From assembly GCF_025717675.1 (NCBI RefSeq), contig NZ_JAJIRT010000004.1:248001-312000 (forward strand): a DNA stretch of 64,000 nt. The letters are read 5' to 3'. The number at the start of each line of letters is the position of its first letter. Position 1 is the stretch's first letter. Shown piece by piece: positions 2,339-52,625 of the stretch. The DNA comes from Paucibacter sp. DJ2R-2. GTDB taxonomy: Bacteria > Pseudomonadota > Gammaproteobacteria > Burkholderiales > Burkholderiaceae_C. Under the pieces are notes generated by a model. It saw only the letters and a program-made list of their open reading frames with translations, ran no database searches and had not been told where the DNA came from. A program made the position numbers and the translations under genes.

Positions 2339-4639
2339 ATGAAACACACCCTGCCCATCCTCACCGCCACCCTGGCCCTGCTCGGCCTGGGCCACGCTCC
2401 GGTTCAGGCGGCGGGCAGCCAGGGCACGGTCGGCCCGGGCATCGCCGGCCAGGAGATGGCCAGCCGCAGCATCATGCGCGCCTATTTCCGCGACATTCAG
2501 CAGGCCCGGGCCATTGCCCACAGCCGCTTCGAAACCCTGGAGTCCAAGTACGAACTCGGCTATGTGGTGGTGAACGCCAATGCCGAGGAGCAGCGCGAGC
2601 TGCGCGCCCTCGGATTCAGCTTGCAGGCCGATGCCAAATGGCAGGGTCGTCAGCTGGCCCTGGCACGCAGCGAGGAAAAAGCCGCCAAGCAGCGCCAGCA
2701 GCGCGCCCCGGGAGGGCCGCAGCCCAGCTTTGTCGGCATTCCGAACTACAGCTGCTACCCCACGGTGGAAGAGGTGTTCGCCGAGGGCGACGCCTTGATC
2801 GCGGCGCGCCCCGACCTGGCCCGCTGGGTGGACATCGGGGACTCCTGGCAAAAGACCCAGGGCCAGGGTGGCTACGACCTGCGCGTGCTGCGCTTGAGCA
2901 ACGCGGCCTACCCGAGCGGCAAGCCCAAGCTCTTCATCAACGCCGGCATCCACGCCCGCGAGTACGCCACCACGCCCCTGGTGCTGGAGTTCGCCAAGCG
3001 CCTGGTGAACGGCCACGGCGTCGACGCCGACATGACCTGGATCCTCGACCAACACGAGATCCACCTGCTGCTGGCCACCAACCCTGATGGCCGCAAGAAG
3101 GCCGAGACCGGCCTGCTCTGGCGCAAGAACACCAACACCGCCTACTGCGGCGCCAACAGCAACTCGCGCGGCGCCGACCTGAACCGCAACTTCGGCTACG
3201 ACTGGTTCGGCACGGCCACCGGCTCCAGCGGCAACGCCTGTTCCGACACCTACCGCGGCCCGAGCGCAGCCTCCGAGCCCGAGACCCAGGCCGTCGAGGC
3301 CTACATCCGCCGCCTCTGGCGCGACCGCCGTGGCCCCGGCCGCGACGACCCTGCGCCGGCGGACGCCAGCGGCATCCACCTCGACATCCACAGCCACGGC
3401 CGCCTGCTGCTCTGGCCCTGGGGCTCGAACGGCACGCCGGCGCCCAATGACACGCAGCTGGCCACCCTGGGCCGCAAGTTCGCGTTCTGGAACGGCCACA
3501 CGCCGCAGCGCTCCGTGGCCCTGTACGAGACCGACGGCACCAGCGACGGCCCGAGCTACGGCGAACTGGGCGTGGCCGCCTTCACCTTCGAGCTGGGCAC
3601 GGCCTTCTTTGAATCCTGTGGCTATTACCAGAACACCTTGCTGCCCAGCAATCTGCAGGCCCTGATCTACGCCGCCAAGGTCCTGCGCGCCCCCTACCAA
3701 ACGCCCGCCGGACCTGATGCGCTGAATGTCAGCGTCAGCGGCCTGGCCGCCACCGGTGTGCCACCGGGCACCGTGCTGCAGCTCAGCGCCAGCGTCGACG
3801 ACACGCGCTACAACAACAGCAATGGCGTCGAGCCCTCGCAGAACATTGCCGCAGCGCAGTTCTATGTCGACTTCCCACCCGGCGGCCGCCAGGCCTCGCC
3901 GCGGCCCATGCAGGCGGTAGACGGCGCCTTCGACAGCAAGCAGGAGGCCGTGCGGGCCACCGTGGACACCAGCGCCTGGGCGCCGGGCCCGCATCTGGTC
4001 TATGTGCGCGGCCGCGACGCTGCTGGCAACTGGGGTGCTTTGAGCGCCGCCTTCATCCGCATCGACCCGAACGCGAGCACCGCGCCGGTGGCCGCCTTCG
4101 AAGCGGTGGCCCAGGAGCGCAGCGTCACGTTCACCGACCGCAGCGCTGACAACGGCCAGATCGTCAGCCGCAGCTGGAACTTTGGCGATGGCCAGACCGG
4201 CAGCGGCGCCACCGTCAACCATGTCTACGCGGCCGACGGCAGCTACACAGTGAACCTCGCAGTGACCGACGACGAAGGCAAGAGCAGCAGCACCAGCAAG
4301 ACCGTCAGCGTGGCGGCCGACACCACGCCGGTGCTGAGCAATGGCCAAAGCCTCAGCGGCTTGGCCGGCAGCACCGGCAACTGGAGCTATTACCGTGTGC
4401 TGCTGCCCCAGGGGGCGCGCAATCTGGTGGTCAGCACCAGTGGTGGCAGCGGTGATCTGGATCTGTATGTTCGCTACGGCCAGGCGCCCGACGCTGGCAG
4501 CTACGACTGCCTCAAGGAAAGCGGCAGCAACAACGAGACCTGCAGCCTGCCCACGCCGACTCCGGGTTACGTCTACATCGGCCTGTATGCCTATGCCAGC
4601 TACAGCGGCGTCACGCTCAAGGTCACTTACACGCCCTGA
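2339..4639 (+). CDS. Secreted M14 zinc carboxypeptidase with PKD and PPC domains
   Basis: This 766-residue exoenzyme has a Sec signal peptide ending near A-Q-A (about residue 25). The M14 catalytic domain shows the zinc ligands H205-A-R-E208 and H351 (in D-I-H-S-H-G), the substrate-binding N-P-D-G and D-L-N-R-N-F motifs, and the catalytic glutamate E418 in T-F-E-L-G. A PKD domain starts near residue 582 (W-N-F-G-D-G core), followed by a bacterial pre-peptidase C-terminal (PPC) domain ending at the stop. Such enzymes trim C-terminal residues from peptides outside the cell, and the C-terminal domains usually help secretion or substrate binding and may be removed. The gene appears monocistronic. 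A structured repeat begins within its stop codon. Confidence 0.92.
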   Translation: MKHTLPILTATLALLGLGHAPVQAAGSQGTVGPGIAGQEMASRSIMRAYFRDIQQARAIAHSRFETLESKYELGYVVVNANAEEQRELRALGFSLQADAKWQGRQLALARSEEKAAKQRQQRAPGGPQPSFVGIPNYSCYPTVEEVFAEGDALIAARPDLARWVDIGDSWQKTQGQGGYDLRVLRLSNAAYPSGKPKLFINAGIHAREYATTPLVLEFAKRLVNGHGVDADMTWILDQHEIHLLLATNPDGRKKAETGLLWRKNTNTAYCGANSNSRGADLNRNFGYDWFGTATGSSGNACSDTYRGPSAASEPETQAVEAYIRRLWRDRRGPGRDDPAPADASGIHLDIHSHGRLLLWPWGSNGTPAPNDTQLATLGRKFAFWNGHTPQRSVALYETDGTSDGPSYGELGVAAFTFELGTAFFESCGYYQNTLLPSNLQALIYAAKVLRAPYQTPAGPDALNVSVSGLAATGVPPGTVLQLSASVDDTRYNNSNGVEPSQNIAAAQFYVDFPPGGRQASPRPMQAVDGAFDSKQEAVRATVDTSAWAPGPHLVYVRGRDAAGNWGALSAAFIRIDPNASTAPVAAFEAVAQERSVTFTDRSADNGQIVSRSWNFGDGQTGSGATVNHVYAADGSYTVNLAVTDDEGKSSSTSKTVSVAADTTPVLSNGQSLSGLAGSTGNWSYYRVLLPQGARNLVVSTSGGSGDLDLYVRYGQAPDAGSYDCLKESGSNNETCSLPTPTPGYVYIGLYAYASYSGVTLKVTYTP

Positions 4640-4849
4640 GAGCTTAAGAGCTTTTCTACTGCGCCACCGTCAGGCGTCGTTGGCCGGTTCTCGGAATCCT
4701 CACGTACAGGAAGTACGTTCCGGTTCCTGCGCGCCGGCCGCCTCGACCAGAGGCCGAGTCCTTCGCCAGGCAGATCAAGTCCTCAGGACTTGATCAGTCC
4801 GGGCTCAGCCTAGCCTGACGGCGGCTCGCTACGAAAACTCTCAAGCTCT
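4639..4849. repeat. Intergenic element made of nested inverted repeats
   Basis: Outer arms at 4639-4675 and 4813-4849 are imperfect inverted copies: AGAGCTT...GCGCC.CCGTCAGGC on the left pairs with GCCTGACGGCGGC...AAGCTCT on the right. Inside are a perfect 10-bp palindrome pair, GATCAAGTCC (4773-4782) and GGACTTGATC (4786-4795), and a CGTAC/GTACG pair at 4703-4717 bracketed by GGAA and TTCC. No protein is encoded. It fills most of the gap between the carboxypeptidase and the next gene and may also act as a transcription barrier. This is probably a copy of a genome-wide repeat family, which cannot be shown from one window. Confidence 0.65.
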
Positions 4850-4895
4850 GAAGCTACAGTGCGGTCCTTGTTCGACCCATCTTGAAGTCCGCCCT

Positions 4896-5525
4896 GTGAT
4901 CGATCTGCCCAAACTCAGCAAACCCGAAAGCGGCCCGGCGCCGCGCTGGTTCCACATCGCCGTGGCCGGCAGCATGGTGCTCAGCTCGGTGGCCGCGGTC
5001 TATGGCTCCTGGCGCACCAGCCAGACCATGGCGGCCCTGGTCAAGGAGAACACCCGGCTGGTGATGGCCAACTCGACACCGCTGCTGGAATTCGGCACCG
5101 GCAATCAGGTGGGCGGCAAGGCGCAGCTGAGTTTCACGGTGCAGAACGTGGGCAATGGGCCGGCACGGGTGGTGTGGTTCGAGCTCAAGTCGAACGGCAA
5201 ACCGGTTCCGCATGTGATCGAGATGGTGAACGAGGTGGCGCCGGAGCTCGGGCGCAAGCTGCTGATCAGCACCACGACCATCGCGCCGCGCCTGATTTCG
5301 GCCGGCAAGGAAATCCAGCTGTTCGGCTGGGACCGCCCGCCCGAGTCCGACGCCGCCGGCTTTGCGGCCTGGAACCGCTTTGACCAGCACCGCCAGCGCA
5401 AGCTCAGCGTGCAGGCCTGCTACTGCTCGGTGCTCGATGCCTGCTGGATTTCGAACCTCGAAGGCGACATCCCGAAGCCGGTCGAACGATGCGAGACCGA
5501 GGGCCGCCTCTCACCCCAAGGCTGA
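4896..5525 (+). CDS. Hypothetical membrane-anchored protein
   Basis: This 209-residue protein starts at GTG 4896. A single transmembrane segment spans about residues 20-40 (F-H-I-A-V-A-G-S-M-V-L-S-S-V-A-A-V-Y), preceded by a Pro/Lys-rich tail and followed by a soluble domain. The soluble part has a beta-sandwich look (S-F-T-V-Q-N-V-G-N-G-P-A-R-V), as in many bacterial signal-anchored proteins of unknown role. A cysteine cluster (C-Y-C-S-V-L-D-A-C) lies near the C-terminus and could form disulfides or bind metal. I do not recognise a named family. It converges with the lipoprotein gene downstream, with 14 bases between them. Confidence 0.65.
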   Translation: MIDLPKLSKPESGPAPRWFHIAVAGSMVLSSVAAVYGSWRTSQTMAALVKENTRLVMANSTPLLEFGTGNQVGGKAQLSFTVQNVGNGPARVVWFELKSNGKPVPHVIEMVNEVAPELGRKLLISTTTIAPRLISAGKEIQLFGWDRPPESDAAGFAAWNRFDQHRQRKLSVQACYCSVLDACWISNLEGDIPKPVERCETEGRLSPQG

Positions 5526-5539
5526 GGCGGCCTCGCGCC

Positions 5540-5914
5540 TCAGCTGCCGCAGGACGGCACTTGCGGCTTCTGGCTGGTCTTCATGCACTGCTTGAAGCCT
5601 TGCGGCAGGTCACGCATCTCCTGCGTCTGACCTGCGGCCACCGTGAACTGGCGGATCACCTGATGGGTGCAGGTGGTGGCTGGCTGGCCGCCCTCGCCCT
5701 CGGCCGTGCTGCAGCGGCTGGTGTAGAGCGCGTAATGGCATTCACCGCTGGGGCTGGCCACGCACTGGAAGTTGGCCGTGCCGGCGGCGTTCATGCTCAG
5801 CTTGCTGCTGTTGCCGCCTTCGGTGTGCGTCACGTGAATGGCGCAACCCGTGGCCAACAAGGCCAGCGCGGCGGCGGCGGAAAAAGACAAGAGGGAGCGA
5901 ATGGCGGTCTTCAT
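5540..5914 (-). CDS. Small putative lipoprotein
   Basis: This 124-residue protein has a clear lipoprotein signal: M-K-T-A-I-R, a hydrophobic core, then the lipobox L-A-T-G-C with cysteine at about residue 24. The mature part contains several cysteines (a C-x-x-x-x-x-x-x-C-H pattern, C-S-T-A, T-T-C-T-H, K-Q-C and a C near the end), suggesting disulfide bonds in the periplasm. I recognise no known domain. It is transcribed away from the following gene and converges with the membrane protein before it. Confidence 0.65.
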   Translation of the reverse strand: MKTAIRSLLSFSAAAALALLATGCAIHVTHTEGGNSSKLSMNAAGTANFQCVASPSGECHYALYTSRCSTAEGEGGQPATTCTHQVIRQFTVAAGQTQEMRDLPQGFKQCMKTSQKPQVPSCGS

Positions 5915-6258
5915 GGATGGGCTTTCCAGCGAGGCGCTGGTTGTTGGTGGATGGTTGTTGAGTAGGTCAGTGATGACACTGCCGGTGAATCGCGGCTTGG
6001 AGCCTGGATCACTGCAGATGGACGCATCCTAGGAAGGGCCGACACGGCCGTCCTGCGTTTTGCGACCCACTGCATGAATCGAGGCCTGAAGCGTCATGCC
6101 GGCGCCACTTTCGTTTCGCTTCGCACCTGATTCGTGCGTTCTGTGCCGCCCAAGCTGCAGACGGTCGGAGCCGGCTGGCTGGGCTCGAAGCTCGCCCCTA
6201 CATTGCGATCCATGCCCTCGCTGCCGAGGGCGCCCCGCACAACTTCGGAAGGTCCGCC
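5915..6258. other. Divergent intergenic region, 344 bp
   Basis: This gap separates two divergently transcribed envelope-protein genes and must hold both promoters. I see no convincing -35/-10 pair, no RNA gene and no long repeat. A plausible ribosome binding site (GGAAGG) sits about six bases upstream of the ATG at 6259. Confidence 0.4.
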
Positions 6259-6834
6259 ATGTCGACAAGCCCTCGCCTCTTCAGCACCCTTGCCCTTTCC
6301 GTCAGCCTCGGTCTGGGCCTGATGGCTTCGGCCGCACAGGCCGGCGACGACGCCAACAAGCCCAGCAAGTCCTTCAGGGCCGGCGTGGACATCAGCGAAC
6401 AAGCGGACCTCAAAGACATCGGCCTGCCGGCCTACCCCGGCGCGCGGATCCACCGCGACAAAAAGGACGACAAAAAGGAAGACAACGGCAACGCCACCAT
6501 CGGCTTTTCCTTCGGCCCCTTCGGCATGAAGCTGGTGGTGTCCAAATTCGCCAGCAACGACGAGCTGGAACAAGTCAGCCGCTACTACCGCGAGGCCCTG
6601 GCCAGCTACGGCACGGTGCTGGACTGCAGCCCCGGCAGCCCCGAGGCCTTGGCCGCCCAGGCCCGCAAGAGCCGCAAGGAAAAAGACCCCAACGGTTGCG
6701 GCGACGTCAGCGGCGACCGTGACGAACGCGTCTACAAGGTCGGCACCGAGAAGAACTTCCGCCTGGTCTCGCTCAAAACCGTGGGCCGTGAAGTGCAATT
6801 TCAGCTGATGCGGCTGGAGCTCAAGGGTCTCTGA
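6259..6834 (+). CDS. Secreted protein of unknown function
   Basis: This 191-residue protein has a Sec signal peptide (hydrophobic core and a cleavage site at A-Q-A, about residue 29). The mature protein has a Lys/Asp-rich linker (R-D-K-K-D-D-K-K-E-D) and a motif G-L-P-A-Y-P-G-A-R that recurs in periplasmic proteins annotated only as hypothetical. The two cysteines (in L-D-C-S-P and N-G-C-G-D) could pair. No catalytic motif is visible. GGAAGG upstream supports the ATG at 6259. Confidence 0.7.
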   Translation: MSTSPRLFSTLALSVSLGLGLMASAAQAGDDANKPSKSFRAGVDISEQADLKDIGLPAYPGARIHRDKKDDKKEDNGNATIGFSFGPFGMKLVVSKFASNDELEQVSRYYREALASYGTVLDCSPGSPEALAAQARKSRKEKDPNGCGDVSGDRDERVYKVGTEKNFRLVSLKTVGREVQFQLMRLELKGL

Positions 6835-6890
6835 CGCAGAACCCTGTACGGCTCCCCATTTTTTTATCAGGCCGTGAGGCCGCTTCAACG

Positions 6891-7637
6891 ATGCCTCTGT
6901 TTTCACCCACGATCCAGGCTTTCTGGCACGCCAGCTTCCTCGCCGGCGAACGGCTGTCTCAGGACGAAGACTTCACCGTCGTCGTCAATCCCAGCTTGGG
7001 GGAGGATAGACGGCTCATGATCCTGCGCCGCGCTGATGGCCGGGTCCATATCGCCCTGAGACCCGAAGTCGCCGAGCAACTGGAGCTCGCCCGCCTGCCG
7101 GGCCTGAGCGAGCCCCTGCTGCGGCAAGAGCTGAGCGAACACCACCTCCAGCTCCATGGCGCGGACCTGGTCTTCCATTTCAGCGAGGCCGATCAACACA
7201 GCCTGCAACTGGAGCAGCCGGCCCCGGGCGTGCGCCTCTTGACTGCCGCGGACGCGGCCGCTTTCGCCGAGTTCCAAGCCTCAGCCTCGGAGCAAGATCT
7301 GGACGATGCCTACGTGGAACTCGACCACTGGGCGGTGTTGGGCGCCTTTGAAGGCGAGCGCCTGGTGTGTGCGGCCAGCATGTACCCCTGGGATGATGCT
7401 GCTGACGATGAAGAACAAAGCAAGATTGCCGATGTCGGCGTGCTGACTCTGCCCTCAGACCGCGGCCGGGGCCATGCCCGCCGCGTGATTCGCGCGATCG
7501 CTCGTCACGCCTATGAACAGGGTTATGAGATGCAATACCGCTGTCAGACCGACAACGCCGCGTCGGCCGCTTTGGCGCGGGCTGCGGGGCTCAGTCTGTT
7601 TGGCAGCTGGGAAGTGCTTACCGCTGAGCAGGATTAG
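6891..7637 (+). CDS. GNAT family N-acetyltransferase
   Basis: In this 248-residue protein the acetyl-CoA-binding motif A of the GNAT fold is seen near residues 185-205: V-G-V-L-T-L-P-S-D-R-G-R-G-H-A-R-R, where R-G-R-G-H-A is the pyrophosphate-binding loop. It is followed by the motif B region (N-A-A-S-A-A-L-A-R-A-A-G). The N-terminal half is a separate, less conserved domain. The acceptor substrate is unknown. The stop codon TAG (7635-7637) is also the first three bases of the MITE-like element that follows, so insertion of that element may have supplied the present C-terminus. Confidence 0.8.
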   Translation: MPLFSPTIQAFWHASFLAGERLSQDEDFTVVVNPSLGEDRRLMILRRADGRVHIALRPEVAEQLELARLPGLSEPLLRQELSEHHLQLHGADLVFHFSEADQHSLQLEQPAPGVRLLTAADAAAFAEFQASASEQDLDDAYVELDHWAVLGAFEGERLVCAASMYPWDDAADDEEQSKIADVGVLTLPSDRGRGHARRVIRAIARHAYEQGYEMQYRCQTDNAASAALARAAGLSLFGSWEVLTAEQD

Positions 7638-7880
7638 CCCGGATGTTTCACGAGGTCGGCCCTGGCCGGTCCGCAGCACCGATGAGCACGATGATCTCTC
7701 GCTTCGACCTTCGATCCATTTTGGACACTGGGCCTACGCGGGCTTGCGCGGCCCAGACCTTGCCCCTGACGCCTCAACTCCTCGCCGATGCCACTGGGCA
7801 TCAGCTGCGGCCGTCTCGGCGCCACTGGCTGCGGCCTGGACGCACGCAATTCCCGCGTCCCTCGTGAAATATCCGGGCTA
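7635..7880. mobile_element. MITE-like element with 21-bp terminal inverted repeats
   Basis: The 21 bases at 7635-7655 (beginning TAGCCCGGAT, ending TTTCACGAGG) match the reverse complement of 7860-7880 at 20 of 21 positions. The 246-bp interval encodes no credible protein, so it looks like a non-autonomous element or an internally deleted insertion sequence. I see no clear target-site duplication. I cannot assign the IS family. The remaining gap to the CoA-transferase gene (7881-7969) holds nothing recognisable. Confidence 0.6.
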
Positions 7881-45100: not shown

Positions 45101-46831
45101 TCAGAACAAGAAATAGCGTTGGGTCATAGGCAGGCTCTGCGCCGGCTCGCAGCTGAGCAGCAGGCCGTCGGCGCGCACGGCATAGCTTTGCGCATCGACC
45201 TCCATGCGCGGCGCGTAATCGTTGTGAATCATGTCGCGCTTGCCCAGGCCGCGGATGCCGCGCACGGCGGACAGCGTCTTTTGCAAACCATAACGCTGGC
45301 CCACCCCGGCCGCCAGGCCGGCCTGCGACACAAAACTCAGCGAGCTGCGCGCCAGGGCGCCGCCGAAGGCCGCGAACATGGGCCGGTAGTGCACCGGCTG
45401 GGGCGTCGGGATGGAGGCATTGGGGTCGCCCATGGCGGCCAAGGCGATGCTGCCGCCCTTGAGGATGATGCTGGGCTTGACGCCGAAGAAGGCCGGTTTC
45501 CAGAGCACCAGATCGGCCCACTTGCCGACCTCGACGCTGCCCACCTCGTGGCTGATGCCATGCGCAATCGCCGGGTTGATGGCCAGCTTGGCCACATAAC
45601 GCTTGACCCGCGCGTTGTCATTGCCAGGCCCATCACCAGGCAAAGGCCCGCGCTGCACCTTCATCTTGTGCGCCGTCTGCCAGCAGCGCAGGATCACCTC
45701 GCCGACCCGGCCCATGGCCTGGGAGTCGGAGCTGAACATGCTGATGGCGCCCAGGTCGTGCAGGATGTCTTCGGCCGCAATGGTCTCGCGGCGGATGCGG
45801 CTTTCGGCAAAAGCCAGGTCCTCGGCAATCGCCGGGTCCAGGTGGTGGCAGACCATGAGCATGTCGACATGCTCGTCCAGGGTGTTGATGGTGTAGGGCC
45901 GAGTCGGGTTGGTGGAGCTAGGCAGCACATTCGCCTCGCCCACCACCTTGAGGATGTCGGGCGCATGGCCTCCGCCGGCCCCCTCGGTGTGGAAGGTGTG
46001 GATGGTGCGGCCTTTGAAAGCGGCCACCGTGTCCTCGACAAAGCCGCTCTCGTTGAGCGTGTCGGTGTGGATGGCGACTTGGGTGTCCGTGGCCTCGGCC
46101 ACGTTCAGGCAGTTGTCGATGGCGGCCGGCGTGGTGCCCCAGTCCTCGTGCAGCTTGAGGCCGATGGCGCCAGCCTCGATCTGCTCCTGCAGGGCCAGGG
46201 GCTGGCTGGCATTGCCCTTGCCGAGAAAGCCCAGGTTCATGGGAAACGCATCGGCCGCCTGCAGCATGCGCTCCAGATGCCAGGCACCGGGCGTGCAGGT
46301 GGTGGCCAGGGTGCCGGTGGCCGGGCCGGTGCCGCCGCCCAACATGGTGGTCACGCCGCTGGCCAGGGCTTCCTCGATCTGCTGCGGGCAGATGAAGTGG
46401 ATGTGGGTGTCCACCGCGCCGGCGGTGACGATCAGCCCTTCGCAGGCGATCACCTCAGTGCCGGGGCCGATGATGATGTCCACGCCGGGCTGGGTGTCGG
46501 GGTTGCCGGCCTTGCCGATGGCGACGATGCGGCTGTTCTTGAGGCCGATATCGGCCTTGATGATGCCCCAGTGGTCGAGGATCAGGGCGTTGGTCATGAC
46601 CGTGTCGACCGCGCCTCCGTCCTTCCCATCACCGCGGCCGCGCTGCGACTGCGCCATGCCGTCGCGGATCGTCTTGCCGCCGCCGAACTTGACCTCCTCG
46701 CCGTAGCCTCCCGCGCGCAGGGTCAGGTCTTGCTCGACCTCGATGATCAGTTCCGTGTCGGCCAGGCGCAGGCGGTCGCCCACGGTGGGGCCGTACATCT
46801 CGGCATAGGCGCGTCGTCCCAGCGTGGCCAT
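45101..46831 (-). CDS. ureC: Urease alpha (catalytic) subunit
   Basis: This 576-residue catalytic subunit hydrolyses urea to ammonia and carbamate. The nickel ligands are visible: H-x-H in V-D-T-H-I-H-F, the carbamylated lysine K226 in G-L-K-L-H-E-D-W-G, histidines in [13 protein letters not shown], and the flap/catalytic region M-V-C-H-H-L-D. The start ATG 46831 overlaps the ureB stop (TGATG); a GTG one codon upstream is possible. It has a small [10 protein letters not shown] insert near residue 65. Assembles with UreA and UreB. Confidence 0.97.
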
Positions 46832-47136
46832 CACAAGCTCCCTTGCACCAGGCCGCGAAAGCCGTGAACGATGCGCGCGCCGGCCAGGTCCACCAGCTCC
46901 ACGGTGCGCTGCTGGCCGGGCTCGAAGCGCACGGCCAGGCCGGAGCCGATGTTCAGCCGCATGCCGCGCGCCGCGGCGCGGTCGAACTGCAAGGCCGCAT
47001 TGGTTTCGGCGAAATGGTAGTGGGAGCCGACCTGGATGGGCCGGTCGCCCGCGTTCTGCACCACCAGGCTCAGCGTGCGCCGGCCGGGGTTGAGCAGGTG
47101 CTCGCCCTCGGGCGTGAACAGCTCGCCGGGAATCAT
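46831..47136 (-). CDS. ureB: Urease beta subunit
   Basis: This 101-residue structural subunit has the family start M-I-P-G-E and the hallmark [11 protein letters not shown] and [15 protein letters not shown]. It forms the (UreABC)3 trimer with UreA and UreC. Its start overlaps the HupE/UreJ stop by ATGA, and its stop overlaps the ureC start. Confidence 0.96.
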
Positions 47137-47714
47137 GCGCCGACCACCCGGGTCATCAAGGCCAGGCCCAGCAGCGCAATGCCGCCACCCAGCACGCGGC
47201 TCAGCGGCAGGGCCCAGCGCGCCTGCGTGCGGCGCAGCCACAGGCCCAGGCCCAGGCCGGCCACATGGAGCAGCCAGGTCGCCAGCACCATGCCCAGCAA
47301 GGCCAGGCCGCCGTCCAGCTCAGCACCATGGGCCACGCCGTGGAAGCAGGCAAAGAAGCCCACCAGACCCATGGCCAAGGCTGGCGCCAGTGCGCGCCGG
47401 GTGGCGGCGAGCAGGCCCAGGGCCAGCACCGAGGCGGCGATCATGGGCTCGACGGCCGGCAGCTCCAGGCCGCTCAAGCCCAGCAGCGCACCGACCAGCA
47501 GCAGCACGGCAAAGGCCAGCGGCGCCTGCCAGGGCCGACGCAGGGCCAGGCCGCTCCACAAGCCCACGGTCAGCATGGCCGCCAGGTGATCGGCCCCGCT
47601 CAAGGGGTGGAAGAAGCCGGTGATGAAGTCATGGCCGTGGGCGGCATCGCCGGTGTGCGACACGGCCACCAGGGGCAGCAAACCAGCGAGGGCGGAGACG
47701 AGAGCGCGTTTCAT
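47133..47714 (-). CDS. HupE/UreJ family nickel transporter
   Basis: This 193-residue membrane protein has an N-terminal signal or first helix, then [18 protein letters not shown], the histidine-rich motif of HupE/UreJ, and five or six further helices including C-F-H-G-V-A-H-G. It likely brings nickel across the inner membrane for urease. Insertion between ureA and ureB is a known arrangement in Burkholderiales. The gap after ureA is 44 bases, and it overlaps ureB by four. Confidence 0.9.
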
Positions 47715-47758
47715 GAGGGCGGATTCCTGTCGGTGTCGTGGAAATGGATGAGGGGCGA

Positions 47759-48061
47759 TCAAACAATCGGTTGGTGGACCGTGACCAATTTGCTGCCATC
47801 CGGGAAGGTCGCTTCCACCTGGATGTCGGGAATCATCTCGGCCACGCCGTCCATCACATCGGCGCGGCCGAGCAGTTCACGGCCCTCGCTCATCAGTTGG
47901 GCGACGGTCTTGCCGTCGCGGGCGCCCTCCATCACGGCGGCGCTGATGAAGGCCACGGCCTCGGGATAGTTGAGCTTGAGCCCGCGGGCGCGCCGGCGTT
48001 CGGCCAGCAGGGCGGCGGTGAAGATCAACAGCTTGTCCTTCTCTCTCGGCGTCAGTTCCAT
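47759..48061 (-). CDS. ureA: Urease gamma subunit
   Basis: This 100-residue structural subunit begins [12 protein letters not shown] and contains L-K-L-N-Y-P-E-A and [14 protein letters not shown], typical of UreA. Start ATG 48061 has AGCAGGA upstream; the frame extends 12 codons further but the family start is clear. It is the first gene of the operon here. The usual first gene, ureD, is not found between it and the divergent kinase. Confidence 0.96.
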
Positions 48062-48092: not shown

Positions 48093-48107
48093 TGCAAGTC
48101 CCGTGCC
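48093..48107 (-). promoter_or_regulatory. Sigma-54 (-24/-12) promoter of the urease operon
   Basis: On the minus strand the sequence C-GGCACG-GGAC-TTGCA matches the sigma-54 consensus TGGCACG-N4-TTGCW at all but the first base. The invariant GG and GC are separated by ten bases. The implied transcription start near 48083 leaves a leader of about 20 bases with AGCAGGA before the ureA ATG. Sigma-54 control of urease (via NtrC) is common under nitrogen limitation. I did not identify an enhancer site. Confidence 0.7.
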
Positions 48108-48131
48108 GACTTGGAGACCGCAGCGCGCAGG

Positions 48132-48147
48132 CGGCACGAAACCTGCT
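48132..48147 (+). promoter_or_regulatory. Possible divergent sigma-54 promoter for the permease-kinase gene
   Basis: GGCACG-AAAC-CTGCT has GG-N10-GC spacing and one mismatch in the -12 block. It faces away from the urease promoter, with the two -24 elements 25 bases apart. The implied start is about two bases before the ATG at 48160, which would give a leaderless transcript, so this is tentative. Confidence 0.3.
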
Positions 48148-48159
48148 CGCAGTTCGCCC

Positions 48160-51100
48160 ATGAGCGCCCTGCCCCACGATGTGCCGCTGCCCCTGCATCC
48201 GCCCCTTCATCCGCCCGAAGCCGGCCCGGCGCCGCAGCGCGTCATCAAGATCCGACGCGACTACAACGCCTGGGTGGCGCGTGAAACGCTGGAGGACTAC
48301 GCCCTGCGCTTCACGCCGCAGCGCTTTCGCCGCTGGTCGGGCTTCCGGGTGGCCAACACGGCCTTCGGCGCGGCCTCCTTCCTGATCCTGGAGGCCGTGG
48401 GCGCCACCTTGCTGCTGCAGTACGGCTGGGCCAATGCGGCCTGGGCCATCGTCGCCACCGGCCTGATCATCTTTCTGGCCGGCCTGCCCATCAGCATCTA
48501 CGCCGCCCGCTACGGCGTGGACATGGACCTGCTGACCCGCGGCGCCGGCTTCGGCTACCTGGGCTCGACCCTGACCTCGCTGATCTACGCCAGCTTCACC
48601 TTCATCTTCTTTGCGCTGGAAGCGGCCGTCATGGCCTACGCCCTGGACTTGGCGCTGGACATCCCGCCGCGCTGGGGCTACCTGATCTGCGCCCTGCTGG
48701 TGATTCCCCTGGTCACCCACGGTGTGTCGGTCATCAGCCGCCTGCAGCTGATCACGCAACCGCTCTGGCTGGTCCTGTTGCTGCTGCCTTTCGCGGCGGT
48801 GCTGTGGCAAGAGCCGCAGGCCTTTGCCGGTGCACTGCACCATGCTGGAGCACTCTCGGGCACGGCTGGCTTCGAGTTGCGCCACTTTGGTGCAGCGCTG
48901 ACCGTGGGCATCGCCCTGATCACGCAAATGGGCGAACAGGCCGACTACCTGCGCTTCATGCCCGCCCTGCCGGCCGATGCCGCGCCGGCGCAGCGGCGGC
49001 GCTGGTGGGCGGCGGTGCTGGTGGGCGGGCCGGGCTGGGTGCTGCTGGGCGTGCTCAAGATGCTGGGCGGCGCCTTGCTGGCCTGGCTGGCCCTGAGCCA
49101 CGCCGTGCCGGCCGAACGCGCGGTGGACCCCAACCAGATGTACCTGGCCGCCTACGAGTATGTGTTCCCGCACTACGGCTGGGCGGTGGCGGCCACGGCG
49201 CTGTTCGTGATCGTGTCGCAGCTCAAGATCAATGTCACCAATGCCTATGCCGGCTCGCTGGCCTGGAGCAATTTCTTCTCGCGCCTGACGCACAGCCACC
49301 CGGGGCGGGTGGTCTGGGTGGTGTTCAACACCTTGATCGCCTTCTTGCTGATGGAGATGAATGTCTTCGAGGCCTTGAGCGCCGTGCTGGGCCTGTACGG
49401 CAATGTGGCCATCGCCTGGATCATGGCCGTGGTGGCCGATCTGGTGATCAACAAGCCCCTGGGCCTGTCGCCCCCGGGCATCGAGTTCAAGCGCGCCCAT
49501 CTCTACGACGTCAACCCGGTCGGCGTCGGTGCCATGGCCCTGGCCTCGGCGCTCTCGGTCAGCGCCCACCTGGGACTGTTCGGGCCGGATGCCCAGGCCT
49601 TCTCGGCCCTGATCGCCCTGGTGACGGCCTTGCTCGCCTCGCCCTTGATCGCCTGGGCCACGCGCGGGCGCTACTACTTGGCGCGTGCACCGTTCGGTGA
49701 AGACCAAGACGATGGCCGCCCCCTGCGCGCGCGCCGCTGCGTCATCTGCGAGCGCGAGTACGAAGGCCCGGACATGGCCCAATGCCCCGCCTACCAGGGC
49801 GCCATCTGCTCGCTCTGCTGCAGCCTGGACGCGCGCTGCGGCGATCTCTGCAAACCCCAGGCCCGGCTCTCGGCGCAATGGTCGGGCGCGCTGCGCCGCC
49901 TGCTGCCGCGGCCGCTGTGGCCGGTGCTGGACAAAGGCCTGGGCCATTTCCTGCTGCTGATGGGCGTGCTGCTGCCCCTGCTGGCGGCGCTGTTCGGCCT
50001 GCTCTACCACCAGGAGCTGCAAAGCCTGGGGTCCGGCGAAACGCCGGCCAGCCTGCGCGCCGGCTTCCTCAAGGCCTATGTGCTGCTGAGCCTGGGCCTG
50101 GGCATTGCCGCCTGGTGGCTGGTGCTGGCCCACCAGAGCCGCGAGGTGGCACAGGAGGAATCGAACCGCCAGACCGAGGCCTTGATGCGCGAGATCGCCT
50201 CGCACCGCCGCACCGACGAGGCCTTGCAGGCCGCCCGCGTGTTGGCCGAGCGCGCGCAAGCCGCGGCCGAGGCCGCCAACCAGGCCAAGAGCCGCTACGT
50301 CAGCGCCATCAGCCACGAGCTGCGCACCCCCCTCAACAGCATCCTCGGCTATGCCCAGCTGATGGCCGAGGACACGCACGAGCTGCCGCCGCGCCGGCGT
50401 CAGGCCGTGCAGGTGATCAAGCGCAGCGGCGAACACCTGCTGAGCCTGATCGACGGCACCCTGGACCTGGCCCGCATCGAAGCCGGCCGCCTGAGCCTGG
50501 AGCTGGCGCCCCTGCGCTTCGAGGACTGCATGCACGAACTGGCCGAGATGTTCGAGCCCCAGGCTGCCGCCCAGGGCTTGCAGTTCCGTTTCGAGGTGCA
50601 GGGCGAGCTGCCGGCCTGCGTGCGCGGCGACGAGCGGCGGCTGCGCCAGATCCTGATCAATCTGATCGGCAATGCCATCAAGTTCACGCCGCGGGGTCAG
50701 GTCACCCTGCGCGTGCGCCATGCCCGCGAGCTGGCCCTGATCGAGGTGGAGGACAGCGGCCCCGGCCTGGACGCGGCCGAGCTGGCGCGCATCTTCGAGC
50801 CCTTCACCCGCGGCAGCAGCCGCGGCACCGGCGCCACCGTCGGCGCCGGCCTGGGCCTGACCATGGCGCAGATGCTGGCCCGGCTGATGGGCGGCGAGTT
50901 GAACGCACGCAGCACGCCGGGCCAGGGCTCGGTGTTCAGCGTGCGCCTGTTTCTGCCGGCCTTGCCGGACAGCACCCTGCCGCCGGCGCGCGCGCCCCGC
51001 CCGCGCCTGGGCTATGCCGGGCCGCGCCGCCTGCTGCTGCTGGTCGACAACGAAGAGGCCGACCGCCAGCTGTTGATCGAGCTGCTGGCGCCGCTGGGCT

Positions 51101-51642
51101 TTGAGCTGCGCAGCGCCAGCAGCGGCCATGATGCGCTGGACCTGATCGTCAGCGGCGGCCTGCGGCCCGACGCCGTCCTGCTGGACCTGGCCATGCCCGG
51201 CATCGACGGCTGGGAGACCCTGCGCCGCCTGCGCGCCCTGAACCTGCCCCAACCGCCACGCGTGGCCATCGTCTCGGCCAATGCCTTCGAGAAAGGCCAG
51301 GAACATGAGGGCGGCATCAGCGCCGCCGACTTCATCACCAAGCCGGTGCGCCATGCCGAGCTGCTGGACTGGCTGGGCCAGGCTTTGGCGCTGCAATGGT
51401 TGGATCAAGCCACGGAAGTGCCGGAAGCCTTGCCGCTGAAGCAGACGCCCCTGCCTGCTGAACACCTGCCGGCCCTGCGCGAGGCCCTGGAGCTGGGCCA
51501 CTACCGCGGCGTGCTGGCCGCGCTGGACCGCATGCGGGCCGGCCAACCCGACTGCCAGCCTCGTGTGGAGCAGCTGCGCGAGCAGGCGCGGCAGTTCCAG
51601 TTCGAAGCCATGCTGCTGAACCTGGAGGCCACGCCATGCTGA
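48160..51642 (+). CDS. NCS1-type permease fused to hybrid sensor histidine kinase
   Basis: This 1160-residue protein carries at residues 35-510 a complete NCS1 (purine-cytosine permease-like) module with about twelve transmembrane helices, starting [18 protein letters not shown]. Residues 527-564 carry eight cysteines (C-x2-C-x11-C-x7-C-x2-C-C-x5-C-x3-C) that could bind zinc or an Fe-S cluster. Two more helices (about 597-617 and 638-657) and a coiled coil lead to the kinase: H719 in S-H-E-L-R-T-P, then N-A-I-K-F-T and G-L-G-L-T-M. A receiver has D1009 (L-L-D-L-A-M-P-G) and a helical tail ends the chain. It overlaps the LuxR-type regulator by seven bases. It probably senses a nitrogenous solute; the ligand is unknown. 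Known parallel: CbrA (SLC5 type). Confidence 0.9.
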
Positions 51643-52625
51643 CCACGACATTCAGCAGCACTGAGGGGTCGCGCAGCGAGCGCGTGCTGATCGTCGACGA
51701 TGTGCCGGACAACCTGGCCCTCTTGCACGACGCGCTCGATGAATCGGGCTACACCGTCTTCGTCGCCACCAGCGGCGAGGCGGCCCTGGCCCGCGCGCGC
51801 CAGGCCCAGCCCGACATCGTGCTGCTGGACGCGGTGATGCCGGGCATGGATGGCTTTGAGCTGGCCCGCCGGCTCAAGGCCGCGCCGGCCACGGCCGGCA
51901 TCCCGCTGATCTTCATGACCGGCCTGACCGAGACCGAGCATCTGGTGGCCGCGCTCGAAGCGGGCGGCGCCGACTATGTGACCAAGCCCATCAAACCCAA
52001 GGAGGTGCTGGCGCGCATGCAGGTCCATCTTCGCGCTGCTGCCCAAGCGCAAGGCGCTGTGCAGACGCGGCGCGCGCTCGATGCCTTCGGCTACGCCAGC
52101 GTCACCGTGCGCCTCAGCGACGGCCGCCTGATGTGGCAGACACCGCTGGCGCGCGAACTGCTGCAGCGCCACTTCCCGGCCGAGCCCGGCGGCCTGCTGC
52201 CAGCGCCGGTGCGCACATGGCTGGCCCGGCAATCGATCAGAGTCTCGGAACTGTCGCGCGAGCCGCCGCGCTTTCAGCACGAACAAGGCGCCTGCCGCCT
52301 CAGTTTTGCCCTGCACCCCTCGGGCCTGGATGCCTTGGACGAAGGCGACGAATGCCTGCTGGTCATGCGCGAGCACAGCGACGCCGCCCTGATCGAAGCC
52401 ATGGGCCTGAACTTCCGCCTGACCGCGCGCGAGGCCGAGGTGCTCTACTGGGTGGTCAAGGGCAAGATCAACCGCGACATCGGTGACATCCTCGGCGCCA
52501 GCCCGGCCACGGTGAAGAAGCATCTGGAGCGCGTCTTCGCCAAGCTGGGCGTCGAGACCCGCACCTCGGCGGCGGCCATGGCCTTGAACCGCCTGCGCCA
52601 GCTGCACCCGCAGTGGGAGTTGTGA
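51636..52625 (+). CDS. LuxR/NarL-type response regulator
   Basis: This 329-residue protein has a receiver domain with D-D near residue 22, phospho-acceptor D65 in V-L-L-D-A-V-M-P-G-M-D-G and K-P near residue 115. A middle region of about 120 residues without a recognised domain (it may be PAS-like) follows, then a LuxR helix-turn-helix (L-T-A-R-E-A-E-V-L...I-L-G-A-S-P-A-T-V-K-K-H-L). The start overlaps the kinase stop (ATGCTGA), so it is the coupled partner. It lacks an AAA+ domain and cannot itself activate the sigma-54 urease promoter. Confidence 0.92.
   Translation: MLTTTFSSTEGSRSERVLIVDDVPDNLALLHDALDESGYTVFVATSGEAALARARQAQPDIVLLDAVMPGMDGFELARRLKAAPATAGIPLIFMTGLTETEHLVAALEAGGADYVTKPIKPKEVLARMQVHLRAAAQAQGAVQTRRALDAFGYASVTVRLSDGRLMWQTPLARELLQRHFPAEPGGLLPAPVRTWLARQSIRVSELSREPPRFQHEQGACRLSFALHPSGLDALDEGDECLLVMREHSDAALIEAMGLNFRLTAREAEVLYWVVKGKINRDIGDILGASPATVKKHLERVFAKLGVETRTSAAAMALNRLRQLHPQWEL

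Follow-up and report, generated by a model that had tools for sequence, protein, structure and literature searches.

The 64,000-nucleotide window analysed here, from Paucibacter sp. DJ2R-2 (contig NZ_JAJIRT010000004.1, positions 248,001 to 312,000), contains the gene for a hybrid sensor kinase with an NCS1-like permease as its input domain (48160..51642, + strand), followed by the gene for its partner, a LuxR-type response regulator (51636..52625, +). The kinase gene is one continuous frame of 1160 amino acids that encodes, in order, the permease domain, a module with eight cysteines, a two-helix membrane hairpin (49945..50115, +; about residues 596-652, with hydropathy segments at about 598-613 and 636-652), HisKA and HATPase_c domains (50284..50955, +) and a C-terminal receiver (51037..51369, +). 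Pfam places HisKA at residues 709-776 of the protein, HATPase_c at 823-932 and the receiver at 960-1070; with the conserved residues H719 (codon 50314-50316) and D1009 (codon 51184-51186), each retained in 80 of the 81 homologs aligned, these are the features of a hybrid histidine kinase. The regulator, of 329 amino acids, comprises a receiver and a GerE (LuxR-type) domain by Pfam; its phosphoacceptor is presumably D65, which we assigned from the usual receiver motif.

Divergently upstream of the kinase lie ureA, encoding urease gamma (47759..48061, -), and a gene of the nickel- and urease-associated HupE/UreJ family (47133..47762, -). A further gene at 45101..46834 (-), which served as a tblastn query, we take, from its sequence, to be ureC (urease alpha). 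The probable start of ureA is the ATG at 48061 rather than the TTG at 48097, and the gap between urease and kinase is therefore 98 bases. The initial annotation of this locus had described the single frame with all its parts, an overlap with the regulator gene and a back-to-back placement with urease. Translation, Pfam and hydropathy confirm the first, the coordinates the second (the regulator gene starts at 51636 and the kinase gene ends at 51642, so that seven bases are shared), and the divergent urease gamma and HupE/UreJ genes the third.

The permease domain occupies about residues 24-510 (48229..49689, +), as delimited by hydropathy, profile comparison and conservation, and shows about 12 hydrophobic segments. 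The usual cargo of NCS1 proteins is a nucleobase, hydantoin or allantoin. The initial assignment of this half to NCS1 stands through a chain of profiles and fails by direct search: PF02133 (NCS1) matched none of 72 homologs at E <= 0.1, and residues 1-640 of the window protein gave no Pfam match up to E 10 (the HMMER filters drop most matches above 0.1), SLC5/SSF included; by profile comparison the half is NCS1-like instead. In the scan of 72 homologs, the scattered other matches were PAS domains, confined to one member, and weak hits ascribed to chance; Pfam searches of the linker gave no STAC match. No PDB chain matched in a sequence search with the window protein, and the permease profile retrieved nothing credible from the PDB, with E values of 1.3 and above only. 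By contrast, the 72-row profile finds the standalone permeases L285 (167 bits), L286 (59), L287 (50), L288 (25) and L289 (22), of which L285 (35.9 bits, cut-off 23.5), L288 and L289 exceed the PF02133 cut-off, L287 scores below it and L286 has no match. Compared by hhalign with an NCS1 set (L287, L288, L289 and Mhp1), the profile gave 99.2% and E 7.8e-20 in a single-target comparison, and with Mhp1 and L289 alone 95.3% and E 2.3e-8. Because this chain leads to PF02133 members and to Mhp1, the permease half is, on profile evidence, a divergent NCS1 relative, and its likeness to Mhp1 and CodB-like proteins is remote.

One lysine of the permease, K356, is invariant (72/72) and aligns to S312 of Mhp1, in the S312/T313 area with an uncertainty of one column; the title of the Mhp1 record is hydantoin transport protein. 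We take the Na2 site of Mhp1 to consist of A309, S312 and T313, which would place K356 in the Na2-site region. In CbrA, a histidine transporter-kinase, the Na2 site contains a lysine (K196), and transport is proton-driven (PMC13022988). Mean agreement with the window over 81 aligned members was 0.71 for the permease, 0.67 for the surroundings of the cysteine segment, 0.59 for the kinase core and 0.53 for the receiver; thus, no part of the protein is more constrained than the input half.

The eight-cysteine module (49729..49860, +; residues 524-567, with C527, C530, C542, C550, C553, C554, C560 and C564) lies between permease and hairpin and has the pattern C-x2-C-x11-CP-x6-CSLCC-x5-C-x3-CK in the window. 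If the permease has 12 transmembrane helices, the module that follows them would be cytoplasmic. C527, C530, C550 and C553 are kept in all 81 rows and the other four cysteines in 80, the sole exception being L090, which lacks the kinase. A profile of the module, run over 200 genomes of the phylum, found 28 places in 26 genomes, all within fusion frames of 894-1223 codons. The module is thus seen only in the NCS1-fused kinase family, and the notion of a mobile domain was dropped; a single 32-codon match in a 27th genome was taken as spurious. In a search with 27 module rows, Pfam returned a zinc ribbon for one row (best E 0.0073), C2H2 for three (0.018) and Prok-RING_1 for three (0.027); a PDB search returned short C2H2 pieces (best E 0.0017), RING (0.45, 9.2) and zf-HIT (9.8). 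Neither RING nor zf-HIT zinc fingers gave a significant match in these Pfam and PDB sequence searches, and neither did any other entry for the module as a whole. Our guess, with modest support, is that it could be a two-site zinc module coupling permease to kinase.

Two kinase-less permeases end in a partial cysteine module: L090, from a genome of the order that measures 1.5 Mb, and L358 (9001-10581), from a Streptomyces plasmid. Both keep both CxxC pairs, and they are possible ancestral or split forms.

The NCS1-fused kinase family is old and common. Genomes were sampled from the genus (18), the GTDB family (399), the order (300), the class (229) and the phylum Pseudomonadota (200). Within the genus, 17 of 18 genomes have the permease half. 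The scan of the GTDB family gave matches in 224 of its 399 genomes, and 217 remained once seven weak matches (E above 1e-20) had been set aside; in the order, 53 of 300 matched, and 50 remained after three weak ones (G437, G563, G628) were dropped. Among these 50, G571 is represented by a 40-residue piece of the cysteine segment near a contig start, and G663, the source of L090, lacks the kinase. The class sample gave 14 matches in 229 genomes, including one partial frame and one standalone permease, and the phylum sample 29 in 200, with the fusion in 26. Named bearers among the best 80 matches include Roseateles, Pelomonas, Variovorax, Acidovorax, Hydrogenophaga, Rhizobacter, Zoogloea and Azohydromonas. 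Matches were also found in 532 of 72,556 plasmid records, of which 342 are from Klebsiella and 307 are typed as conjugative.

Three sets of loci were used to survey the gene neighbourhood: 80 stretches of up to 20 kb from the order and family, hand-picked for genus spread, plus the window (81, including kinase-less L090); 40 stretches fetched from the class and phylum, reduced to 35 by leaving the standalone permeases L285-L289 out of the counts; and the best 80 named matches, which partly repeat species of the other two sets. A tblastn search located urease, urtABC or fmdA genes within 70/81, 28/35 and 62/80 of the stretches, respectively, and within 62/70, 24/26 and 46/57 of those uncut by a contig end. 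The nearest divergent urea gene upstream is ureA in 37/81 order/family and 53/80 named loci, urtA in 17/81 order/family and 24/35 class/phylum loci, and fmdA in 2/81 order/family loci. A regulator like that of the window follows on the same strand, 2-5 kb downstream, in 78/81, 30/35 and 73/80 loci. The recurrent neighbour clusters carry the NCBIfam names UrtA, UrtB, UrtC, UrtE, urease beta and formamidase FmdA, and annotated replicons agree: on plasmid pBVIE02 of Burkholderia vietnamiensis, the kinase and LuxR regulator are divergent from fmdB, formamidase and a HAAT transporter, a Klebsiella plasmid has urtABCDE and formamidase with the kinase, and pSymB of Sinorhizobium meliloti has urtABCDE with three small genes between it and the kinase.

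The initial annotation had placed the system in nitrogen use and had proposed urea, allantoin or a pyrimidine as the solute. The neighbourhood was checked for a lack of any link with nitrogen genes, and the opposite was found, a strong phylum-wide link with urea, urea-ABC transporter and formamide genes. Urea, with urease, urt and fmdA as neighbours, remains the candidate solute; allantoin and pyrimidines were set aside, since no allantoin, pyrimidine or purine gene occurs among the annotated recurrent clusters (clusters in few loci were left unannotated, so that rare links are possible). In a FastTree tree of 117 permease halves, 41 rows have urt, 37 ure, 2 fmd and 17 other urea layouts, and 20 have none; the 37 rows with divergent urease are all contained in a single clade of 42 (support 97), and the wider tree around it includes the urtA-divergent rows. 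At least four layouts were seen (divergent urtA, divergent ureA, same-direction upstream urease and downstream fmdA), some in more than one class. Taken together, tree and layouts indicate that the urea link exists in several forms.

Co-occurrence across whole genomes points the same way. UrtA, called with TIGR03407 at E <= 1e-120, is present in 115 of the order's 300 genomes and urease gamma in 122. UrtA accompanies the kinase in 46/50 kinase-positive genomes against 69/250 kinase-negative ones, urease gamma in 48/50 against 74/250, and either of the two in 49/50 against 90/250; Fisher p-values overstate the case because the genomes are related.

Relatives without the kinase were also placed in their surroundings. 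L285, the closest relative found that lacks both kinase and cysteine module, adjoins a nitrilase-type amidase, an AmiR/ANTAR regulator and a UrtA-like binding protein whose score falls short of the UrtA cut-off. With the thresholds used above, one of the five standalone permease stretches (L288) has urea genes; its NCS1 permease, which is CodB-like, is flanked by an aliphatic amidase and a formamidase within a urtBCDE-urease locus (4049-7710), which hints at a possible role of NCS1 proteins in handling small amides.

A candidate DNA target accompanies the pair. TACG-N8-CGTA occurs in 30 of 39 dereplicated urtA-kinase gaps against 0.0 in shuffles, and the full palindrome of the divergent gaps is ATACGTCA-N2-TGACGTAT, with the consensus TACGYCA-N2-TGRCGTA. 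A matrix of this palindrome is passed by 41/42 training gaps and by 41/43 divergent loci, training gaps included (L252 and L264 fail). Outside the training set, 38 of 40 same-direction urtA loci pass (19 order/family and 21 named; 30 distinct sites), often with TACGCCA-N2-TGGCGTA.

Distant urtA genes were scored with a matrix built from all 79 sites, in 20 of the 69 kinase-negative UrtA genomes, hand-chosen for high-scoring UrtA, and in 20 kinase-positive ones; one stretch was only 538 bases long. The palindrome was found at 0/20 promoters in the former and 7/20 in the latter, with the qualification that of these seven sites that of G598 was already in the matrix via L077 and G686 has an identical site. 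The window's own genome is among the seven, with GTACGCCATCCGCCGTAT (G000:C29:316954-316971). In 12 of the 13 failures there is a second urtA near the kinase, and the nearer promoter bears the palindrome in all 10 that were fetched (14.0-30.2 bits). Sixteen places in the window's own genome lie within two mismatches of the consensus, compared with 96 for a backwards-pattern control; only two of them keep both TACG/CGTA outer arms, one being that of urtA.

Regulator and operator also co-vary. The operator arms are intact in 73 of the 86 loci that have a regulator together with urtA or fmdA, and 68 loci could be assigned to one of three operator types. Of the 329 positions in the regulator, 294 shows the highest mutual information with type: N goes with TACGTCA, K with TACGCCA and T with the TACGCA type. 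In the window, this residue is K and lies within the GerE domain, in what we take, from the family's known structure, to be the recognition helix. Four rows, in two separate subclades (L060/L088 and L273/L281), have D294, and G at the sixth half-site base occurs in these rows alone. The five T294 rows (L214 and, elsewhere, L271, L279, L280 and L282) have A at this base on at least one side, which is weaker evidence because four H rows and 7/31 N rows also have A there. The co-variation suggests that the partner regulator probably binds the palindrome.

The intergenic region of the window holds two further candidate elements, -24/-12 promoters of the sigma-54 type. One, CGGCACGAAACCTGCT (48132..48147, +; 10 of 12 positions), faces the kinase, and the other, CGGCACGGGACTTGCA (48093..48108, -; 11 of 12), faces ureA; the latter was scored by hand, as it lies outside the group scan, in which the scanned gap ended at the tblastn match. 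With GG and GC fixed and at least 10 of 12 positions required, urease-kinase gaps have sites toward the kinase in 59/89 cases (shuffles 0.4) and toward ureA in 58/89 (1.0). In gaps of the urtA/fmdA type, the counts are 16/42 toward the kinase (0.65) and 2/42 toward the urea gene (0.6). Urease and kinase promoters thus look sigma-54 dependent. The regulator has no AAA+ domain by Pfam, so another activator, presumably NtrC, would drive them; with such promoters back to back, kinase and urease are probably both made under nitrogen limitation. When the clade A gaps between urease and kinase were searched for the palindrome, 23/89 scored above the 99th shuffle percentile, with seeded controls at 15/89 and 49/89, the latter apparently because these controls found the conserved sigma-54 elements, and we draw no conclusion from this search.

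The distance from the end of the -12 GC to the kinase ATG is 13 bases (48132-48163), which would leave the kinase transcript nearly leaderless. The same 13 bases are found in the genus relatives L014 and L016, and 17 in L017.

The reading that we regard as likely is that of a two-component system for external urea and short-chain amides such as formamide, inducing urtABCDE, with the NCS1-like domain as receptor. Under nitrogen shortage, urease and the kinase-regulator pair would be expressed from the sigma-54-type promoters (through NtrC). Binding of urea or formamide in the NCS1-like pocket would alter its state, and the change would be relayed through the cytoplasmic eight-cysteine module and the hairpin to H719. 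H719 would then phosphorylate the partner regulator, with D1009 as an intermediate or a sink, and the phosphorylated regulator would bind TACGYCA-N2-TGRCGTA upstream of urtA and activate urtABCDE or, in a second clade, urt-fmdA. A fuller version seems to us evenly balanced between true and false: that the protein is an NCS1-derived urea transceptor with an invariant lysine in place of the sodium site and a family-specific two-zinc eight-cysteine coupler, part of an ancient, plasmid-mobile unit of sensor, regulator and palindrome for urea and formamide scavenging across Pseudomonadota.

Several findings weigh against the urea-sensing reading. Urea genes are missing from the stretch in 11/81, 7/35 and 18/80 homologs and from 8/70, 2/26 and 11/57 uncut stretches, including Zoogloea, Denitromonas and Azonexus loci; the loci are related and some species are repeated. 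In the order, 74 of 122 urease-positive genomes lack the kinase, and urease is therefore independent of it. The urease-kinase gap of the window has no palindrome, the predicted target in its own genome being a urtA about 17 kb downstream of the kinase, beyond the window, and G457, the 13th failure among the distant promoters, has neither a nearer urtA nor the palindrome. The K/N change at position 294 is one event on the tree and so proves little by itself. Finally, Pfam reports no HPt domain for a relay from D1009, and H719 may thus pass its phosphate directly to the regulator.

Among the other explanations, the one that fares best is also a refinement, overlapping with urea sensing as proposed above: the permease may be a true transceptor that still transports urea or amides, the kinase reading flux or occupancy, instead of a receptor without transport. 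CbrA both transports histidine and signals, and at the Na2 position, where K356 is invariant here, this proton-driven protein has K196 (PMC13022988). The kinase-less forms with a partial cysteine module, L090 and Streptomyces L358, fit as well. Many homologs, however, already adjoin a dedicated ABC transporter, and we hold the idea tentatively, at somewhat under an even chance.

It is unlikely that urea and amide uptake is the regulated process while the permease senses another solute (ammonium state, a nucleobase, hydantoin or another amide) or serves as an anchor, the signal coming from the cysteine module or another protein. The usual NCS1 cargo, the near-invariance of the module and the remoteness of the Mhp1/CodB-like similarity would suit such a scheme. 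On the other hand, the permease is the most conserved part of the protein, purine, pyrimidine and allantoin clusters are absent among the annotated recurrent neighbours, and kinase-less L285 and CodB-like L288 also lie among amidase or urea genes.

Still less probable is a redox or iron-sulphur role of the cysteine module, coupling nitrogen uptake to redox state. Eight nearly invariant cysteines invite the idea, and thiol-based redox kinases such as AccS exist (PMC6456745), but the weak module matches are mostly zinc folds and the two kinase-less relatives retain both CxxC pairs. That the kinase is merely carried along with urea operons by descent is very improbable: the homologs are related, their loci are non-independent and the urease-divergent layout arose essentially once (2 tree changes when rows without urea genes are omitted), but at least four layouts exist, some in more than one class, and the operator is present at distant urtA genes too.

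The proposed urea sensing by an NCS1-like domain has a close parallel in the SLC5-STAC kinases CbrA, CrbS and RpuS, which likewise carry a LeuT-fold transporter N-terminal to the kinase via a small cytoplasmic linker (PMC13022988, PMC5715377, PMC9100948). CrbS is also paired with a LuxR-type regulator, CrbR, which requires an imperfect inverted repeat (PMC5715377). The present protein differs in its NCS1-like rather than SLC5 transporter, its eight-cysteine linker without a significant Pfam match, its extra two-helix hairpin and its ligand, which we infer to be urea or an amide rather than histidine, acetate or pyruvate. Ks-Amt5 also joins the fold of a nitrogen-solute transporter to a histidine kinase (PMC5764959), but it has the Amt fold and comes from an anammox bacterium, whereas the NCS1-like fusion occurs in 26/200 genomes of the phylum. 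With the NCS1 transporters (Mhp1, CodB-like proteins and MetT), the permease shares profile-profile similarity and is distinguished from them by its fusion to a kinase and the invariant lysine in its Na2-site region; MetT, an NCS1 protein for metformin, extends the family to ringless ligands (PMC13390362).

The substrates proposed for the present system, and its gene content of formamidase and ABC transporter, are also found in AmiC/AmiR and in the fmdCABDEF cluster of M. methylotrophus, which is induced by formamide and urea (PMC10781810, PMC13209695). AmiC/AmiR is, unlike the kinase described here, a binding protein with an antiterminator, and the relevant passages of the two papers do not name the fmd sensor. 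By size and position only, a Dechloromonas aromatica histidine kinase of 1131 amino acids with a CheY-like receiver of 308 beside UrtA fits the family; the passages concerned list the two without domain analysis or function (PMC2907700 Table 4, 2009). A literature search that covered few subscription journals gave neither an NCS1-fused kinase nor a kinase that senses urea to control urea uptake among the matches listed, the nearest being other urease regulators and urea chemotaxis in H. pylori (PMC9535007). The NCS1-fused kinase is a new variant of transporter-fused kinases, outside the SLC5-STAC set, and an NCS1 class would stand beside the SLC5 and Amt ones. A candidate urea sensor, its partner regulator and their DNA target are now named, which, if true, accounts for urea detection in many soil and water bacteria and could provide a natural urea biosensor.

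Some individual loci deserve mention. On a conjugative K. pneumoniae ST307 plasmid, L356 (NZ_CP022920.1, 2897-13231) unites kinase, regulator, urtA-E, formamidase and palindrome; the regulator is missing from the record's table and was located by tblastn. The urt-formamidase cluster of this ST307 lineage is treated in PMC13060141, in which 'histidine kinase' and 'two-component' occur nowhere. In another class, L276 and L284, which are 894 and 899 codons long, have no receiver; downstream there is fmdA-fmdB but no same-strand regulator. The kinase of L070 (2352-7498) has no nearby urea genes and adjoins an apparent nifHDK, named by us from its sequence. A 407-amino-acid frame on the opposite strand (cluster 17, e.g. 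L115 7922-9142) was called in eight loci where the regulator lies; as tblastn finds the regulator in all eight, this frame is probably a gene-calling artefact. Two records named Acinetobacter phage MD-2021a (CAKLQH020000001.1 and CAKLQF020000001.1) each contain two matching places, of which the best is annotated arcB; these records may be host DNA. Elsewhere, the kinase gene is deposited under the names 'ATP-binding protein', 'response regulator', 'ArcB' and 'integral membrane sensor hybrid histidine kinase'.

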